Below are positions 38,265 to 50,752 of a stretch of 64,000 nucleotides of DNA, in pieces. This DNA is from Rhodococcus qingshengii JCM 15477 (GTDB lineage: Bacteria; Actinomycetota; Actinomycetes; Mycobacteriales; Mycobacteriaceae), in contig NZ_CP096563.1 in assembly GCF_023221595.1 (NCBI RefSeq), forward strand, positions 2,710,501 through 2,774,500, in the 5' to 3' direction. Within the stretch, counting starts at the first letter, position 1. Every line of letters begins with the position of its first letter. Below the pieces are notes generated by a model. The model did no database searches, had not been told where the DNA came from, and worked only from the letters and a program-made list of their open reading frames with translations. Position numbers and translations under genes: made by a program.

Positions 38265-38290
38265 GTGTGTCCACAGACGAGGGGATCAGT

Positions 38291-41200
38291 GTGAGCGTTC
38301 TTCCAGGTTCGAACTCCGGAGCGGCGAGCGAAGCTACGTTTGCTCTCACAGGAGCTCAACTCGGGATTTGGAACGCACAGAGGCTTGATCCCGAATCTCG
38401 GAGCTACCTCGTCGGCGAGGTGCTCGAAATCTCGGGTGACGAACCGATCGACACCGAACTGCTGACAGCTGCCATCACGGCGACGATCGGTGAAGCCGAA
38501 ACCATGCGGCTGCGGATGATCGAGACGTCGGACGGCCCGCGTCAGTACATCTCCGACGAGCCGGTTGGCATCATCCCGATCACCGACGTCCGTGACGAGC
38601 GCGATCCCGTAGCCGTGGCGCACGCACTGGTCGACGCCGAGCGCAGCCGGGCGTCCGAGTACTGCCGCCTGATGGTGGAGCGTCCGCTGTACACGTACTC
38701 GCTGATCAGGCTCTCCGATCGCGAGATCTGGTGCATCCAGCTCTATCACCACTTGATCGTCGACGGCTACAGCGCAGCCATGATTTCGCGTCGTGTCGCC
38801 GCGCACTACACGGCCGCGAAGAAGGGAACCGACGTCGCACCAACGCGATTCGGTTCTATGACAGATCTGGTCAGCGAGGACGAGGCGTACCGGGCTGGCG
38901 AGCAGTTCGCGGAAGATCGTGACTACTGGCGTGATGTCCTGACGCCGTTGCCCGCGTTGGACGGACGCGGCCAGCAGGTCACCGGTCCGGCGGAACGAAC
39001 GATCCAGGTTCGCGAGATCATTACCGCCGACGCCCTCAACCGCCTCAAAGACGTGGCAGACGCGACGGGAACAACGTGGGCCGAGGCACTGATCGCCTGC
39101 TACGGCGCGTTTCTCCACCGACTGCTCGGCGAGACGGATGTTGTCATCGCGATGCCACTCATGGCGCGCGTAGGTCGCACGGCACTCAAGACGCCGGCCA
39201 TGGCAGTCAACGTTCTGCCTCTCCGGTTGACGATTCGCAGCCACGATCGACTCGGTGACCTGAGCAAGCAGGTGGCCGCCACGATGAAAAGCCTGCGCGC
39301 ACACCAGCGCTACCGCGGTGAGAATCTTGCTCGGGACCTGGGCGTCGCCGGAACCGGCGCACTGCTTCACGGGATCGGAATCAATCTCAAGGCTTTCGAC
39401 TTCGCCCTCGATTTCGCCGGCGCTGTGGGTGTACTGCGAAACGTCGCCGGGGGACCGCCGGAGGACCTGGGTTTGACGGTTACGCCCATTGCGGACGGCG
39501 AAGTTCTACTCGGATTCGAAGTGGACGCGCGTACCAATACTCGGGAATCGGTTCAGCGTCGCCTCGCCGGTTTCGTCAGCATCGTCAACGCGATGGTCGG
39601 GGAGGGAGATCCTGCCGTCGGTCAGGTGGAGATGATGCCTGCGGCCGAAGCCGCGCGGATTCTCGCCGGCCGCGAAACTGCACCGCTGCCCGGCTCGGTC
39701 GAACTCGTTCCCGACGTGTTCGACCGCATCGTTGTCGAGCACGCGGATGACACAGTCCTCGTGTGCGGTGACGAACGTTTGACAGGCGCAGAACTCGGTG
39801 GCCGCGTCCACAAGCTCGCCCGGTTGCTTCGGGCCCGCAATGTCGGCCCGGACGACATTGTCGGACTTGCGCTTCCGCGTACTTCCGAGATGGTGGTGGC
39901 TCTGCTCGCGACATTGAACGCGGGCGCAGCGTACGTGGCCCTGGATCCGCAGCACCCGGCCGAGCGGTTGCGAGATCTGATCGACGACGCGCAGCCGAAG
40001 GTCGTGATCACCACTTCCACTCTGGCCGAGCAACTCGTCGGAGGTTTTCGGCCCGACCCCCTCGTCATCGATTCCGACGCAGTCCGCGAAGAACTCCGTG
40101 CTAATTCCGAGCTTCCACTCGAACTCGGTGAACTGGCGACAGCACGGCATGGTGATCACCTGGCGTATGTCATCTACACCTCGGGATCGACAGGCAAGCC
40201 CAAGGGTGTGCTGGTCAGAGGCGGTGGATTGGCGCACCTGCTTCACCACCATCGCGCCACCATCTACCGGGACACCGCCGAGCGCGTCGGGAACCGCCAA
40301 CTGCACACCGCGCACACAGCGTCGTTCGCCTTCGATGCGTCTCTCGATCAACTGTTGTGGCTGCTGTGTGGTCATCGTGTGCACGTATACGACGAGGAAC
40401 TGCAGAAGGACGCGGTTGCTCTGGTCGCGGCGTTCGAGCGAGATTGCGTCGACGTGGTCGACACGACGCCGTCGATGGCGGCAGCGATGGTGGACAACGG
40501 GTTGCTGCGTACGCATCGGTTGCAGCTCCTCGTCGTGGGTGGCGAGGCGGCACCGCCCGCGCTGTGGGACGCGATCATCGAATCCGGTGTTCCGGCTCGA
40601 AACCTGTACGGCCCCACCGAAACGACGGTCGACGCGATCGCGACCACGGTCGAAGGTGCCGGACCGCGTATCGGGTACCCCCTCGCGGGTACCCGTGCGT
40701 ACCTGCTCGACAGCGCGCTCGAGCCGGTCGCCGACGGTGAACGAGGTGAGCTCTACCTGGCGGGACCGCAAATGGCCAGGGGCTACCTCGGCCGCGCCGG
40801 CGCGACCTCCGAGCGTTTTGTCGCAGATCCTTTCGGGGCTCCGGGAGATCTGATGTACCGCGCCGGGGACGTGGCGCGGTGGGTGCCGGGGCGGGGCTAC
40901 GACTTCATCGGTCGCAGCGACAAGCAGGTGAAGATTCGCGGACATCGAGTCGAGTTGAGCGAGGTCGAGGCTGTTCTCGGATCGGTACCCGGAATCGGCG
41001 CGGCTGCTGCGTTGATCCGCACGGATGGGGGACGGCCCAGCCTCGTCGGCTACGTTGTAGCCGCCGCCGGCGCGGCGCTTCCGCCGCAGGAAGAATTGCG
41101 CCGTGACCTCGCCGGTCGCGTACCGGATCATCTCGTTCCCGCCGCAATCGTCGTTCTGGACGAACTACCCGTCACGGTGAACGGAAAGCTCGATCGTGCG

Positions 41201-44200
41201 GCACTACCAGCCCCGGCTGCCGAATCGGCAGGTCGCGCCGCATCCACACCGAGCGAGGAAATCCTCTGTGACGTGGTGGCCGAGGTGCTCGGCCGCGAAC
41301 GCGTCGGCGTGGACGAGGACTTCTTCGGCCTCGGTGGTGACAGCATCACGGCAATCAGTGTCAGCAGTCGCCTGCGGGTGCGTGGTCTGATCGTTGCTCC
41401 CAAAGAACTACTGGCACAGCGAGATCTGGGAACCATCGCCGCTGCGGCACGTGAGATTGCCGATGACGCCGACGCCGTAGCCTCGGTTGCGGACGTGGCC
41501 ACCGGCACCGTGATCGCCCCGCCGATCGTTCGAGCACTGATCGAAAAAAATTCGGCAGACGAGGCAATCGCGGGCTATGCGCAGTGGACCGCAGTGCGCA
41601 TCGACGACAGCCTTTCACTGGGTGACCTGCAGTCCGGCGTGCAGACGATCCTCGATCACCATGACGCTCTACGCCTGCTCCTGCGCCGTGACAACGACAG
41701 CGGCACTACCGAATTGATCGTCCGGGACGCCGGTGCAGTGCGCAGCGAGGGACTCGTTCGCGAGGTGTCCGACACCTCCGAGCCGTCCCGGATCAGAGAG
41801 CTCGCGGAGGCGTCGGCGGCGAGTCTCGACCCACGCGCCGGTGAACTCCTGCGAGTCGTACTGGTCAATACCGAGGCCGGTCGACCCGACCAATTGATCG
41901 TCGTGGCTCACCATTTGATCGTCGACGGTGTGTCCTGGCGAATTCTGCTTCCAGACCTCCGCGAAGCTACCGATGCAGCGCGCGAGCGTAGGTCGGCCCG
42001 GTTGGCTGCAGGCGGAAGTTCGTGGCGTCGATACGCAGGGTTGCTCGCGGAATTCGGGGCCTCTGGCAGCAGGGCGTCAGAGCTCGAGTACTGGAAGTCC
42101 GCGTCGGTACAGGCGGACGACGAGGCGATCGGCAGTCGTCGTCTCGACCCGAAGATCGACGTGACCGCAACCGCCACTCGCACGACAACTGTTGCGCCCC
42201 CGGCCGTCACCGACGCGCTGTTGACCACGCTTCCGGCGGCGTATCGAGCCAAGGCCGACGAAGTGCTTCTCTCGGGTTTGATGCTTGCCTTGCGCTCATG
42301 GCAGCACGGCCGCGGCCTCATCGGGCTGCCCGCGCAGACAGTTACCGTCGAAGGTCATGGCCGCGACGCGCTCACCAGCGACACCGACTTCGCCGGAACC
42401 ATCGGGTGGTTCACCAGTGAGTTCCCCGTCCGGGTTCCCACCGATGCACTGCTCACCGCAGACGATCTTGCCGACGCACTGAGCGGCGGAGCAGCTGCGG
42501 GACATCTCCTTCGTGCGGTGAAGGAGGCAAAACGCGCCGTACCCGGAGGCGGAGTCGGCTATGGAGTTCTGCGGCATCTGGATCCCGACACCGCACCTGA
42601 CCTTTCCGCGTGCGCTACACCCGAACTGCTGCTCAACTATCTGGGCCGCTTCCCGTCCTTGCCCGGAACCGGATGGCGATTGCCGGAGCAGGATCCATTC
42701 GCGGTCATCGAGCCGGCGACGAAGGTTATGTCGGAAGTGCTGGCGCTCAACGCATTTGTCCGAGAGGACGACTCGACGACGCTGGCAGTCGAATGGACTG
42801 CGGCGGGTTCAGTGCTCGACGGCGCGACGATCGTCGAGCTGCAAGAGCATTGGGAACGTGCGCTCGCTGCCCTGACCGCGCATGCCGCGCTCTTCGAGGG
42901 TGGTTTGACGCCTTCCGATTGCTCGGCGACGATCTTCGGCCAGGGCGCGGTGGTCGATCAGGCAGGGATCAACGAACTCGAAGCCGTCCACGGACCGCTT
43001 GCCGACGTCCTTCCGCTCTCGCCGCTACAAGAAGGTCTCCTGTTCCATGCGGTCCGTGACGGAGCCGCAGACGTCTACACGCTCACTGCACGCTTCGACC
43101 TCTCCGGGCCACTGGACGAGGCGAAGTTGGCCGACGCGTTCGAGACCGTGATCGACAGGCACCCGAACCTTCGCGCAGCTTTTCACTACGAGCAGTTCGA
43201 ACGGCCCGTTCAGATCATTCCGCGCGGCGCAAAAGTCGAGTGGCGTTCGGTCGATCTGACCTCCGTTCCAGCTGACACTGCATTCCGCTCTGCAGATCAG
43301 CTCGAGGACGAGGCCGCCAAGCATGTCTTCGACGTCAGTACACCGCCTCTGCTGCGTGCACTACTGGTTCGGCTGCCCGGCGGGGTGCACCGTTTGGTCC
43401 TCAACGCGCACCACCTGCTCACCGACGGTTGGTCGACTCCGATCGTCCTGCGCGAGCTGATGAACGTCTACCACGACGGCGACAGCCGCCTCCCTGCGCC
43501 GACGCCGTATCGCGACTACTTGGCATGGATCGCCGGCCGTGATCAGGACTCTGCCCGCGCAGCGTGGAGCGAGCGTTTGCGTGGGCTCACCGCGCCGACT
43601 CTCGTTGCCGATGCCGGAGCGCCGCGAAGTGTGCCCGTCGCGCTCGAGGTTCCTCTCGCGACATCGGACGCCGAAGCGCTGATCGAACTCGGCCGTGCGC
43701 GAGCGCTGACGGTCAACACCCTGGTTCAGGGTTCGTGGGCAGCAGCGCTCGCCGAAGCGACAGGACAGTGGGACGTCGTGTTCGGGGCCACGGTGTCCGG
43801 CCGACCTGCCGAACTCTCGGGGGTGGAGGGAATGGTCGGGTTGTTCAGCAACACGATTCCGGCCCGCCTCGACATCGTCGCGCACCGGCCTTTGCTCGAT
43901 CAGTTCGTCGATCTCCAGAACGCCCAATTCGACATCGTGGACGTCGAACACACCAGTTTGGCCGAGATCGAACGCATCGCCGGAATCGGGCAACTGTTCG
44001 ACACGCTCCTGGTGTTCGAGAACTTCCCGAACTCCGGTGCAGGACAGCCTGCATCGCACACACTGCGGGTCGAGGGATTCACCAACCGCGGAGTCACGCA
44101 CTATCCGATGACGTTGATGGCGCCGCCGAGCACCGGTCTGGATCTGGTTCTGTACCACGATCCGGCAGTTGTCTCCGACGCCACGGCGGAGCGAATGGTC

Positions 44201-47200
44201 ACACGGCTCGCGGAGATCCTGCGTGGGTTGCTGACCGAGCCGACAGCTCCCGCATCCGCGGTGCTCACGGTAGTCCGACAGGCAGCGTCCGTTGCCGATG
44301 CGGTGTCTGCCGCGAAAAATGTCGCTGTCACGAAAAAGGTGGCCGCGTCCGATCCTGCGATCGATGTCGATCCCGCGGTCGTGGATGCAGTGTGCGCCTG
44401 TGTCGCAACGGTGTTGGAGATTCCCGACGTCGATCCGGGCGACAATTTCTTCACTCTCGGCGGTCACTCGCTCACTGCGATGCGGTTGGTGGGAAGCCTG
44501 CGCAAGCTGGGAATTCGCGTCGTCGTCTCGGATGTCTTCGACACCCCGACCCCCCTCGGTCTTGCCGTGGCCGCACGCGTCGATCGGACGAAGTTCTCGC
44601 CGGATTCGGTCGTTGGCGTCGATCGACCCGTTGTGACCGTGGCGACGTTCCGCGCCCCGGCGGTGGCGGGAAATCCTGATCACGAGCGTTACTGGGTTCG
44701 CACGCTCGCGGACCTGCCCCTCGAAACGGACCTTCCGTATGACCGCCCGCGCGGCGAAGAGTACCGCCCGCACACCTACCTCCGTCAGCTACGCGATGCC
44801 CGGTTCGGTGACGAACCAGGATTCGACGCGGTGCTGTTGGCTGCCGTGGCGGCGACGCTGAACAGCTTCGGCGGTGGTCGGGACCTTGCGGTCGGACTGG
44901 TCTCGGAAGGGACTGACACCCTGATTCGGGTCGACCTGTCCGGTCGGCCGAGAATTGCCGATGTCGTTCGGCGAGTCGAAAACGCTGTCTCCGAGGCACT
45001 TGCGCATTCCGATGTCAGCCTCGACCGAATCGCCGATCTACTCGGGCGTCCGACGAGCAGCCTGTTCGCTGCCCGTGTCGGTCACTCGCCCGGAAAGAGC
45101 GTCGACCTCGAATTCGTCCGAACCGCAACAGAACTTCGATTGACGGTTGATGCCGGGCTGTTCGACGCCGCGACTGCGGACGCATTGCTCGACGGTGTGA
45201 TCGCGGTCCTCGGTCACGAAATCAGCACTGTCGTCGCGGATCTGCGACTGGCAGAAAACAAGCCGGATCGCGACCCGGGCCGACGCGCGACGCCGCCGTC
45301 GGGGATCTCGCAGTTGTTCGCTCGACACGTCAGCCGCCACCCCGACGACATCGCGGTGATCTCCGGCGAGGTCGGAATTACCTACGGGGAACTGTCGGCG
45401 CGCGTCGACGAGCTGGCCCGCGAACTTCTCGCGGTCGGCGCCGGACCCGAGAAGGTAGTCGCCGTCGCGCTGGATCGAAATGCGGATCTGGTGGCCGGAC
45501 TGCTCGCGGTACTGCGCATCGGCGCTGCGTACCTGCCACTCGACGTCGATTACCCGACTGAGCGGCTCGAGTTCATGATCGAGGACGCGGCTCCGGTGTG
45601 TGTCCTGACCAGTATCGACAGCGCCGGGCAACTTCCGTTGACGGTCGCCACGTGTGTCTTCGTGGACGGTGAGTTCACCAACTCGGGTGTCGTGCTTCCT
45701 CCGCCGCCCGCGGCGGGTGATCACCTCGCCTACATGATCCACACCTCCGGTTCGACGGGTCGCCCCAAGGGCGTGATGGTCTCGACGGGCAACCTCGCAG
45801 CCTTCGCGGACACGGTACTCGAGGATTGCTGGATCAGGCCGGGCGATCGCATCGTCGCGGTGACAACGGTGTCGTTCGACATCGCGGCACTGGAGTTGCT
45901 GTGCCCGCTCGCGGCGGGCGCGACTGTCGTGATCGCAGACCGCAGGACGGTTCGCGATCCGGATGCGTTGTCGGCGTTGATCATCGCAAGCGATGCGACA
46001 GTGATGCAGGCAACGCCGGCGCTGTGGCGAGTGGTCACCGAACACGAGAACGCAGTCGGACTCGCCATGGTGCGAGCCCTGGTGGGAGGGGAAGCCCTCC
46101 CGCAGGATCTGGCCGACGATCTGGTGGCCAACGCTGCTTCGGTCCGGAATGTCTATGGACCCACCGAGGCCACGGTGTGGGCGACATCTTCGGTCATCAC
46201 GACCGGCGACCGAGTCACGATCGGTCAGCCCTGGACCGATGTGCACGTGCGAATCCTCGACGACGACCTGCGTGAGGTTCCGGAAGGCGTTGCGGGCGAG
46301 CTGTATCTGGGCGGTGCGCAGGTGGTCCGCGGATACCTGAACCGCCCCGATCTGACCGTCGCTCGGTTCGTCGCCGATCCTTCTCTGCCGGGGGCACGCC
46401 TCTACCGCACCGGCGATCTGGTCCGACGCCGGCGAGGGGTTTTGCACTTCCTTCGTCGTGCGGACGATCAGGTGAAGGTTCGCGGTTTCCGCATCGAGCT
46501 CGGCGAAGTCGAAGGCGCGCTCGGATCGGTGGCAGGTGTGTTCCGCGCGGCAGCCACCGTTCGCGTCGATGCGGCGGGTACCGGAAGTTTGCACGGGTAT
46601 GTGGTTCCCGAAGGTGCAACCACGCTCGATTCGGTACTGGTGCGCAAGGAGATTGCGCGGCTCCTACCCGAACACATGGTGCCGCAGACCATCACGGTGC
46701 TCGAGGCACTACCACTCACCCTCAACGGGAAGGTGGACCGGAAGGCATTGCCCGACACCGCGCCGGATCGCGTGCAGAGTCCGCTCGTGGCCGTCGATGC
46801 GGATCGTCGGGCACGGCTCGAGTCGCTGAGCCCGGGCTGGCAGGACGTGCTGCCACTCGGTCCCTTGCAGGAAGGCATGTACTTCCAGTCGGTTCTCGAC
46901 GGCGCCGGCGGCACGGATGTCTATCACATGCAGCCGCGATTCGAGTTCTCCGCCGATGCCGCCGTCGACGTTCGCTCACTCCGCGCAGCAGGGGATGCGC
47001 TCTTGCGACGCTATCCGAACTTGCGGGCCGGCTTCACACACGCCGGGTTCGACGCTCCGGTGCAGTTCGTGCCCAGGGAAGCCGAAATGCCTTTCCGTGA
47101 GATCGATCTGAGCGCAGTCGCACCCGAGGACTTGGATATCGAGGTCCGCGCCGTCGACGAGGCCGAATTCGGCAGGCTGTTCGACTTGAGTGCGCCGCCA

Positions 47201-50200
47201 CTCATTCGAATGGTGCTGGTCTGGTTGCCAGGTGGGGGAGCGCACCTCGTCTTCACTCAGCACCACCTGCTGACCGACGGTTGGTCGCAGACCTTGATGT
47301 ACGCGGAGTTGTTTGCGCTCTACGAGTTTGCTCGCACACACGGCACGGACCCGGTTGGACTCGACGGCGCGCTCGACAAGCCTGCGGACTTCCGTGATCA
47401 CCTGCGATGGATCGCCGAAGCGGATCGCACGGACGCCATCTCGTCCTGGAAGGACTACCTCGCGGATCTCGAGCAACCCACACTCGTGGGTGGTACGGGA
47501 TCAGGCGGGCGCGCTCCGTTGCCGGTGTTCACCCGGGTTCAGCTCGAACAGAGCATCACCGAGCACGTACGCGAGTTGGCCAGACGTAGCGGAGTGACGC
47601 TGTCCACCGTGGTTTCTGCGGCGTGGGGCCTGGCATTGCGCGCCGTGACGGGCCGTGACGACGTGGTCTTCGGATCGACGGTTTCGGGACGTTCACCCGA
47701 GGTCGAGGGCGCCGACCGCATGGTGGGCTTGGCGCTCAACACCATTCCGGTACGTGTCCGGGTCCGGCCAGGCGAGGAGATTTCGGCGTTGCTCGGACGC
47801 CTGTTCCGTGAACAAGGTTCGCTGCTGGGGCATCACCAGCTCGGGCTCGGCGACGTGCAGCGAAGCGCTGGGTTCGCAACACTGTTCGACACGCTCTACG
47901 TCTTCCGCAACACGCCTCGTGACGAACAGGCACGTCGAGACACGTTCGGGCGCAGTGGAATCGTCGGGTTCGATGCGGTGGACGGCACCCACTATGCGCT
48001 CACGCTCGACGTGGATCCGGGTGTCGGGGACGCGGCGATGGCGCTCACACTCGAAAACCGTCCTGACCTGATTCCGCACGACGTGGCTCAGGACATCCTG
48101 TCCCGCACCATCACGATTCTCGAAGTGATGGCGAATTCCGATACCGCCACGGTGGCGGACACGGCGGTTCCGCTTTCGCGCACCCCCGCGGAATTCGCTT
48201 CGGAGCACGTCGTGATGCCACGGCCGGACCAGGCCGGCGGTAGCGTGGACGCACTACTGCGCGAAAGGGCAGCGGCAACTCCGGACGAGACGGCGCTGGT
48301 CTTCGGAGACGTCACACTGAGCGCAGCCGAGATGAACTCTCGGGTGGACAGACTGGCACGGATACTCGCTTCGGCGCTGGGGCAGTCGGTACCAGGCGGG
48401 GGACCGACCCGTGTTGTCGCGCTCGCGCTTCCGCGTACTGCCGATCACGTCGTCGCAATCTTCGCCGTCATGAGAACCGGAGCGGCCTACCTTCCCTTGG
48501 ATCTGGCTCACCCGCCGGCACGCCTGCGCGAACTCATCCTCGACAGCGATGCGGCGCTGGTAGTCACCACGACTCAGACGCGTGACCTCGTTGTTCCCGA
48601 TGGACAGCCATGTCTGGTCCTCGACGACCCGGACGTGGCCGGGGTACTCGACGGGCAGTCTTCGGCACCAGTTGTCGACGAGGCTGCGGTCTGCGGGCCG
48701 ACCTCACCGGACCAGCCTGCCTACGTCATCTACACCTCGGGCAGTACCGGAAAACCCAAGGGCGTCGTGGTGGGTCACCGCGGGTTGACGACGATGTATC
48801 ACAATCACAAGGCCGAGATATTCACTCCGACCGAAAACAGTGTGGGTGGCCGACGTCTGCGCATCGCGCATACAGTCTCGTTCTCGTTCGACATGTCGTG
48901 GGAGGAACTGTTCTGGTTGCTCGCGGGGCACGAAGTTCACGTGATCGACGAGCAGGCGCGACTGGACCCCGCGTCTCTGGTGAAGCATTACCGCGAAGTC
49001 GGTATCGACGTCGTGAATGTAACCCCCTCGTATGCACGGGAACTGATGGCCGCCGGTCTCCTCGACGGTGAGCGGACGCCGGTGTTGGTGATGCTCGGCG
49101 GAGAAGCTGTACCTGCCGAGTTGTGGTCGCGATTGCGCGATCAGGACGGTGTCGACGGGTACGACCTTTACGGGCCGACGGAGTTCACGATCAACGCGAT
49201 GGGATCCCCGGTTCAGGGGAGCGAGACACCCTGCTTGGGTCGTCCGATTCTGAACGCGTCTGCGCGGGTACTCGATTCGGGTCTGCGGGAGGTACCGATC
49301 GGAGCGGCGGGCGAGCTGTACATGTCCGGAGACGGAACGGCGATGGGTTACCTTCACCGGACCGCGTTGACCTCCGCTGTGTTCGTTGCTGATCCCTACT
49401 CCGTCGGCAAGCGCATGTACCGCACGGGCGATGTCGTACTGCGTCGTCGCGACGGTGAACTCGAATACCTGGGTCGCGCGGACCATCAGGTCAAGATCCG
49501 AGGCATTCGGATCGAATTGGGTGAAGTGGAATCCGCGTTGGCGTCGTTGCCGGGAGTGTTGCGAGCGGCAGCGTCCGTCCGTAGCGAAGGCGGCGCGCCG
49601 CCGAGACTGGTCGGCTACGTCATCGAAGAACCCGGTGCCGATTCAACCGATCTGCGAGCTGCGTTGCGGGAACGCGTACCGGCACACCTGGTTCCGTCGG
49701 ACATCGTCGTCGTGGATTCGATCCCGTTGACGCCCAACGGAAAACTGGACCGCGGTGCGTTGCCGGCACCCCCCGCCCGAGTAGCGGCCCGAGCACCGCG
49801 AACCGAGATGGAAAGGCAACTGTGCCAGGTCTTTGCGCGGGTACTCGGCGTCGAGGCAGTCGATCCCGAAGAGAGTTTCTTCGATCTCGGCGGCGACTCG
49901 CTTCGAGCAATGCGACTGGTGGGGGAGATGGAGCACGACCTGTCGGTGAGCGTCGGTGTGGCAACGCTGATGGCCCGTCCGACAGTCGCCGAGCTCGCAG
50001 CACACCTTGACGAGTCGGCGTCCGAAATCGATCTGAGTCGCGATCGCCTCCTGACACTGCGAGCCGACGGCAGCGGAGAACCACTGTTCTGCGTGCATCC
50101 GGCCGGTGGATTCGCTTGGCCCTTTGCGCCTTTGACCGGTGTTCTCGAGGCCGACCGTCCACTGTTCGGCCTGCAACTGCCCACAGTTGCCGGTGAGCCA

Positions 50201-50752
50201 CTCGAACCGACGAACGTGGACCAACTGGCAGCGATGTACGTCGACACGATTCGCGGCGTGCAACCGAGCGGGCCGTACCACCTGCTCGGCTACTCGTTCG
50301 GTGGCAACGTCGTTGCCGCGATGGCGGCTCAGCTGGTCGATATCGGCGAGACAGTGGAGTTCGCCGGTCTGATCGATACTCATCCACTGGGAGATCGTGA
50401 CGATCGCGGTCGCGACGATGCCGACGACCGAGATCTGGCCGCCGCCCTGCCACCCGAGATCCTCACTCAGGCACCGGGACTGGTCGAGGCTGTTCGGGCG
50501 GGTTTTGATGCCACTCGTTTGCTCGTGGCCCGCTCGACCGACACAACCTACGACGGACCGGTTACTCTGATCACCGCCGACGCCGAGGCGTCCGGACAGC
50601 TGCTGGCCGATCGCTGGCGCAGAGTCCGCGGGGACCGGGACATGGCAGTACACCATCTGCCGTACGACCACGCCGGATTGGTGACCCCAGCCGGGTGGGC
50701 GGCAATTGCCCCGCTGCTCGACAGCCATTTGTCGAAACGCACGGCCACATAG
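38291..50752 (+). CDS. htbG: Heterobactin-type nonribosomal peptide synthetase HtbG
   Basis: A 4153-residue NRPS. Domains (residues from this start): C1 (HHLIVDG ~153), A1 (~475-960), PCP1 (Ser1018), E1 (His1207, NYLGR ~1449), C2 (His1707), PCP2 (Ser2060), the C-terminal lobe of a C domain without HHxxxDG (~2130-2317), A2 (~2337-2820), C3 (His2991), A3 (~3320-3790), PCP3 (Ser3870), TE (GYSFGG, Ser4002). Hand-read specificity codes: A1 DADDVGLVD (basic residue, Arg expected), A2 DILQLGVVW (Gly), A3 DMENMGLIN (N5-hydroxyornithine type). A2 has no PCP after it and C2 no A, giving the C-PCP-A module described for HtbG of R. erythropolis PR4. Product inferred: DHB-D-Arg-Gly-hydroxyOrn. GAGGGG favours GTG at 38291 over 38267. 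Confidence 0.95.

Follow-up and report, generated by a model that had tools for sequence, protein, structure and literature searches.

The NRPS gene in the window (the whole 64,000-nucleotide stretch of DNA analysed here) raises the question of how half of a condensation (C) domain came to stand between the carrier domain PCP2 and the adenylation domain A2 of the encoded enzyme, and why this lone C-terminal lobe, here termed hC, has been kept.

Domain organization and gene context

The domain order C, A, PCP, E-like, C, PCP, C-lobe, A, C, A, PCP was assigned with profiles built in this study, and the thioesterase domain with Pfam. The features of the gene, in window coordinates, are as follows.

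38267..50752, + strand: NRPS ORF (HtbG-type), 4161 aa, C-A-PCP-E-C-PCP-hC-A-C-A-PCP-TE
38345-39307, + strand: C1 (own profiles)
39734-41209, + strand: A1 (own profiles)
41264-41395, + strand: PCP1 (own profiles)
from about 41552, after PCP1, + strand: putative E-like domain, labelled E from a weak C score and its position
43004..44245, + strand: C2, a full condensation domain, with HHLLTDG at 43409
44387..44551, + strand: PCP2 (residues 2041-2095), directly after C2 with no A between, with LGGHSL at 44456
44552..44674, + strand: PCP2-hC linker, about 42 aa, fast evolving
44675..45256, + strand: hC, the lone C-terminal lobe of a condensation domain
44918..44923, + strand: deletion site of 14 columns in hC, predicted floor-loop region; the relatives' segment ends VGYxVNT
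45086..45091, + strand: deletion site of 24 columns in hC, predicted latch-loop region of relatives
45329..46753, + strand: A2, adenylation domain, ending at residue 2829
46754..46843, + strand: A2-C3 junction, 30 aa, where 9 of 9 aligned relatives have a whole PCP
46844..48145, + strand: C3, the last full condensation domain, starting at residue 2860, with HHLLTDG at 47261
48269-49765, + strand: A3 (own profiles)
49817-49984, + strand: last PCP (own profiles)
50081..50692, + strand: thioesterase domain (Pfam)

As the initial annotation had described, C2 leads straight into PCP2, and A2 leads to C3 without a PCP, across the 30 residues between 2829 and 2860 (about 35 had been estimated). By comparison with the top database match, P0001 (99% identity over the searched region, representing 422 member sequences), the ORF probably starts 8 codons further downstream, giving a protein of 4153 aa. 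Residue numbers in the initial annotation run about 8 lower than the ORF numbering, as expected for a later start, and the peptides quoted there map to ORF residues 2142, 2223 and 2246 (window 44690, 44933 and 45002).

The genes upstream of the NRPS encode an isochorismate synthase, a carrier protein, an SDR, an AMP ligase and an isochorismatase, and those downstream an MFS transporter and a siderophore-interacting protein, a neighbourhood that fits a catecholate siderophore cluster. Both the domain order and this DHB-type neighbourhood agree with the HtbG reference (C-A-PCP-E-C-PCP-A-C-A-PCP, in a DHB siderophore cluster), and the name HtbG for the window NRPS follows the initial annotation. 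HtbG is reportedly the heterobactin synthetase of R. erythropolis PR4, and the gene context and the 99% database match make it very likely that the window NRPS is that enzyme or its direct orthologue. Three hC-type orthologues (L043, L044 and L045, 3915-3923 aa) end directly past the last PCP, and no thioesterase domain is listed for the entries P0002 and P0003, whereas the window copy has one.

The half domain is a condensation-domain C-lobe

The stretch between PCP2 and A2 had been described as matching only the C-terminal lobe of a C domain, and profile comparisons bear this out. In hhalign, a profile of ten lobes (the window copy and nine orthologues) matched 29 generic C-lobes at 99.1% (E 1.6e-18, 177 columns), and gave no match to 29 generic N-lobes (0.1%). 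The comparison of profile with profile matters because the isolated lobe falls under the PF00668 cut-off. In the HMM scan that had been suggested for this region, a 205-aa lobe piece reached E 6.2e-4 and 19 bits (curated threshold 30.6), matching profile positions 194-279 and a second stretch, and our own C profile matched hC at columns 191-340 only. An NCBIfam search with the isolated lobe returned very weak matches only, TIGR03443 among them (E 0.024-0.043). The hC profile also finds solved chains, namely 4tx2 (E 2.5e-13), presumably the teicoplanin X domain, and the PCP-C didomain 7kvw (E 2.2e-11). On 7kvw, hC aligns mainly to residues 280-440, leaving gaps close to the front and at the floor and latch regions, and a second stretch at residues 465-511 is weak by itself. 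As judged from these comparisons, a chance origin of the similarity is excluded. hC would be the remainder of a complete condensation domain, putatively of the LCL type as judged from its motifs.

In comparison with eight full relatives, hC lacks the N-lobe up to the YWxxxLAGLP segment, which opens the C-lobe; the N-lobe columns are absent from the window copy and all nine orthologues, so that the lobe said to have gone together with its HHxxxDG motif is indeed lacking. Further gaps within hC comprise 8 columns, 14 columns ending VGYFVNT, 4 columns, and 24 columns after LFQTMV, and the GxxVxGR...VGFFVNT region is shorter than in the full relatives, as had been noticed. By alignment, we place the floor loop at about the 14-column gap and the latch loop at about the 24-column gap; both of these regions are absent from hC relative to the eight full relatives and the solved chain. 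In the available passages of PMC11186497, the floor and latch loops are the two crossover elements that reach from the C- to the N-lobe. Because the missing regions align with the crossover loops, the trimming that went beyond the N-lobe would have removed largely parts that contact the N-lobe.

Relatives with the full domain set

When 28 genomes of the genus were searched with a 260-aa piece that includes the lobe, 10 of them, counting the window's own genome, gave strong matches. Comparison with other rhodococci, also proposed in the initial annotation, showed the hC layout to be identical in the window copy and the nine same-genus orthologues. A search with the C2-PCP2 junction covered 401 family genomes, a sample taken from a larger group; 46 of them matched at E up to 1e-70, 24 over the full length. 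Of these 24 genomes, ten, all from the window's genus, carry hC and lack a PCP after A2; the remaining 14, of which one belongs to the genus and 13 to four other genera, possess a full C domain and a PCP at those places. The order in these A-less relatives is C-A-T-E-C-T-C-A-T-C-A-T, and named records with this form include Nocardia vulneris, N. brasiliensis (partial), Pseudonocardia halophobica and Rhodococcoides kyotonense. Alignment of nine relatives shows conserved flanks on both sides of the PCP3 deletion, and the window's PCP2 shares 45-66% identity with the PCP2 of the nine, to which it is nearer than to their other PCPs in 9 of 9 cases. The same-genus locus with a full C3 (L168, genome G025, minus strand) has its NRPS in two reading frames, broken within C3, a break that may reflect either sequencing error or decay. 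L040 stops at a contig edge after A2.

Since the junction query was biased towards A-less lines, genomes with partial matches were fetched too (20 of 22, G380 and G400 being left out). Two of the 20 contain a complete four-module line, C-A-T-E-C-A-T-C-A-T-C-A-T (L186 and L187), and the remaining 18 contain shorter NRPSs of the family with an A following C2 (L176-L185 and L188-L195, C-A-T-(E-like)-C-A-T). A proposal that the A after C2 is missing in all relatives was rejected on the strength of these A-bearing forms. The complete lines thus provide living counterparts of the longer ancestor that the initial annotation had postulated. In L176 and L184, the two shorter NRPSs sampled, the front C and A domains group with HtbG-type lines, which hints at an exchange of front halves. 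A homologue search with a Nocardia NRPS gave summed scores that favoured very long unrelated NRPSs.

Phylogeny and order of events

The trees show hC to be a derived form. In a C-lobe tree of three hC and six full rows, hC groups with the full C3 of relatives at 100/100, and at 100/99 when the four-module forms are added; a quick 95-row tree containing all ten lobes gives the same grouping at 99, with a long-branch warning. The stem branch of hC is long (1.2-1.3). Within the C3 clade, hC clusters with the domains from Nocardia and Pseudonocardia (90/95), and the group of hC, these domains and the complete forms has 86/95, without a firm branching order inside it. In a quick tree built from A1, C2, PCP2 and A2, the ten hC carriers form one clade (100), which is nested in a wider one (100) that also holds L075 (Nocardia) and L090 (Pseudonocardia). 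In the four-module form, it is A3 that groups with the window's A2 (100, quick tree), its own A2 lying elsewhere.

As relatives possess a full C domain and a PCP at these places, and as hC lies inside a clade of full domains, the N-lobe and one PCP were lost in the Rhodococcus lineage. The initial annotation had proposed the loss of one A, one C lobe and one PCP; the lobe and the PCP, kept by the 14 relatives and two named records, stand as losses, while for the A domain loss cannot be told from gain or recombination, since the C2 tree is mixed. A-bearing and A-less forms are intermixed in that tree, and in its front part the complete form clusters to some extent with a shorter NRPS of a family relative, so recombination is possible. 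The Rhodococcus lineage may have lost the A after C2, or the other lines may have acquired it.

In C3, 13 relatives carry the motif HHxxxDG. HHIAFDA occurs at two loci from Nocardia, the Pseudonocardia domain reads HHIAIDE, and L186 and L187 share HHIAVDA; the motif glycine is thus changed in L075/L089, L088, L090, L186 and L187, complete lines included. The idea that the C3 motif had already decayed when the cut occurred, as HHIAFDA and HHIAIDE might suggest, was considered and rejected, because the complete four-module forms have HHIAVDA, and a changed glycine alone is therefore no proof of decay.

Lone C-lobes in other NRPSs

A census of 190 NRPS ORFs, chosen by searches and not at random, with near-copies and some loci fetched twice included, and without the loci of the partial-match genomes, counted 371 full C domains and 21 lone C-lobes (L046 being omitted for too short a match). 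All 21 lone lobes are followed by an A domain, in three cases with an extra C tail piece ahead of the A. Strong lone N-lobes numbered 11, all ending their ORF without a further domain, where the sequence at hand ends; the N-lobe count demanded strong matches and the C-lobe count used a lower cut-off, so the contrast between the two is not like for like. The census of lone C-lobes is the best indirect evidence for a role of the lobe as a platform for the A domain.

Several of these lobes follow a starter C and lie outside the hC clade; starred branches in the tree require that they underwent two or more changes. One common half-C family was therefore rejected, the half domains behind a starter C being found in an NRPS group of about 3090 aa and in two NRPSs of the window's own genome. 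The former (L049, L050, L051, L053, L055, L056, L057 and L058) is a second siderophore-like NRPS of the genus with starter C, lone C-lobe and A, whose third module retains the last part of its A (columns from about 302-320), followed by a PCP; the latter (L174, ORF residues 465-708, and L175, 468-689) have the same succession of starter C, lone C-lobe and A. Two of the 21, L164 (ORF residues 97-224) and L133 (102-234), are short C-lobe pieces followed by A near the starts of Streptomyces frames, and may be cut genes.

Proposed glycine loading and the product

Three A and three PCP domains are left in the window NRPS. PCP1 and the last PCP each follow their own A, so PCP2 must be charged by the downstream A2 or in trans, and the domain count suggests loading by A2. 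The pocket residues of A2 look like a glycine-specificity code. Heterobactin A is composed of hydroxy-Orn, Gly, Orn and DHB, according to the available part of PMC10972888. For DHB, Orn, one Gly and cyclic hydroxy-Orn, the calculated m/z is 438.198 (480.220 for the Arg form and 495.220 for the two-Gly form), and the passages available from PMC7824959 give m/z 438.197 for heterobactin B of an R. erythropolis strain other than the window's. One glycine in the compound of that other strain would agree with one putative glycine carrier in the window NRPS.

Retention of the lobe

The reading preferred here, with a rough probability of 0.72, is that a module has collapsed, its C-lobe having been kept as a docking platform for A2, and that A2 would load glycine backwards onto PCP2. 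The last ancestor with the full set would have been C2-PCP2-C-A2-PCP-C, preceded perhaps by a form with an extra A after C2, and in-frame deletion of the N-lobe of the C domain and of the PCP after A2 would then have removed one elongation step in the Rhodococcus lineage. A2 would have been retained as the sole remaining A able to charge the upstream PCP2, and the C-lobe for the rigid platform that it would build together with A2, as C-lobes do in ordinary C-A didomains. hC may also space A2 from PCP2, and the fast-evolving 42-residue linker before hC could let PCP2 reach back to A2. The homology of hC, the domain order, the relatives with the full set, the tree position and the selection are observed directly; docking on A2 and backward loading of PCP2 are the parts that we infer, and the platform idea fits the census and the pattern of selection on hC at the level of sequence.

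Selection was estimated as dN/dS against the window copy in nine comparisons, the ranges quoted being those without the nearest genome (hC 0.37, A2 0.18, few changes). In the other eight comparisons, dN/dS is 0.16-0.28 for hC, 0.10-0.14 for A2 and 0.45-0.73 for the PCP2-hC linker (0.21 against the nearest genome). Where computable, the A2-C3 linker has 0 to 0.48 and the C2-PCP2 linker 0.13 to 0.71; values for distant pairs are rough, as dS exceeds 1. Identity in five distant orthologues is 58-66% in hC, as against 81-84% in A2. hC changes about twice as fast as A2, yet is under purifying selection, its constraint being below that of the working domains and not above that of every linker. These rates, together with the long stem branch and the trimmed loops, are what a decaying remnant would also show, one that serves as a mere spacer and whose fold is not needed, and the short A2-C3 linker is about equally constrained. 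Such decay is unlikely, however, given that dN/dS of hC lies under that of the neighbouring PCP2-hC linker in eight of nine comparisons, that the core segments and length of hC are preserved in the window copy and the nine orthologues, and that the lone C-lobes counted in other NRPSs likewise precede an A domain.

A role for hC in condensation, for instance as a partner for the N-lobe of an adjacent C domain or as a guide that brings PCP2 to C3, would suit its location between PCP2 and the C3 that uses PCP2, but is highly improbable for a lobe with no catalytic His motif and without the regions aligned with the floor and latch loops. The reading that the window copy has a normal C domain interrupted by an assembly or sequencing gap, for which no support was found, is refuted by the layout shared with nine orthologues from other genomes, which diverge down to 56% identity in the lobe piece and contain no internal stops, and by the 422 member sequences behind P0001.

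Related systems and significance

Incomplete C domains before an A domain are already published. In the fungal alpha-aminoadipate reductase, an incomplete N-terminal C domain before the A is needed for A activity (Kalb et al. 2015, as cited in the available passages of PMC10316625). Like hC, it is a non-catalytic piece directly before an A, and TIGR03443 is the model that the lobe weakly matches; it differs in being N-terminal, whereas hC is internal, precedes an A that would load an upstream carrier, and has known full-domain relatives. The fungisporin NRPS HcpA is likewise rearranged: two of its A domains flank an incomplete C of 177 aa, for which its authors propose a former C-A-PCP-C-A-PCP; this enzyme is fungal, and the available passages show no relatives with the full set (PMC4041764). 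The starter C* of ThdA is a truncated C before an A that it is thought able to influence, but it lies at the N-terminus of a starter module, whereas hC is internal (PMC7253712, in the part available). An ordinary LCL C-A didomain shares with hC-A2 the order of C-lobe, linker and A, from which hC-A2 differs by the absence of the N-lobe, the floor and latch regions and a following PCP.

In the accessible parts of the open-access literature, heterobactin papers included, no description of the lobe in HtbG was found, nor anything on a C-PCP-A order, and the only precedents found for truncated or vestigial C domains were alpha-aminoadipate reductase, HcpA and ThdA. What makes the present case valuable is that one enzyme persists in related genera as a series of complete, A-less and truncated forms, whereas module loss without loss of function in NRPS lines has mostly been guessed from endpoints. 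A wider reading, which we regard as evenly poised, is that the lone C-lobe is a recurring NRPS unit, an A platform freed from condensation that arises when the C has become useless but the A is still needed, and that the window line is a module collapse with living stages, from four modules through an A-less C2-PCP2 relying on the next A to the truncated form, one residue shorter. If so, the middle forms should produce a Gly-Gly heterobactin or skip that module. A platform role, if true, would tell which half of the C domain an A needs, with a bearing on cut sites in NRPS engineering, and would explain an A domain that loads an upstream carrier.

Two Streptomyces NRPSs (L117 and L157) share the A-less start C-A-T-E-C-T, with more modules behind it, and A-less C-T modules are thus not restricted to the window's family.
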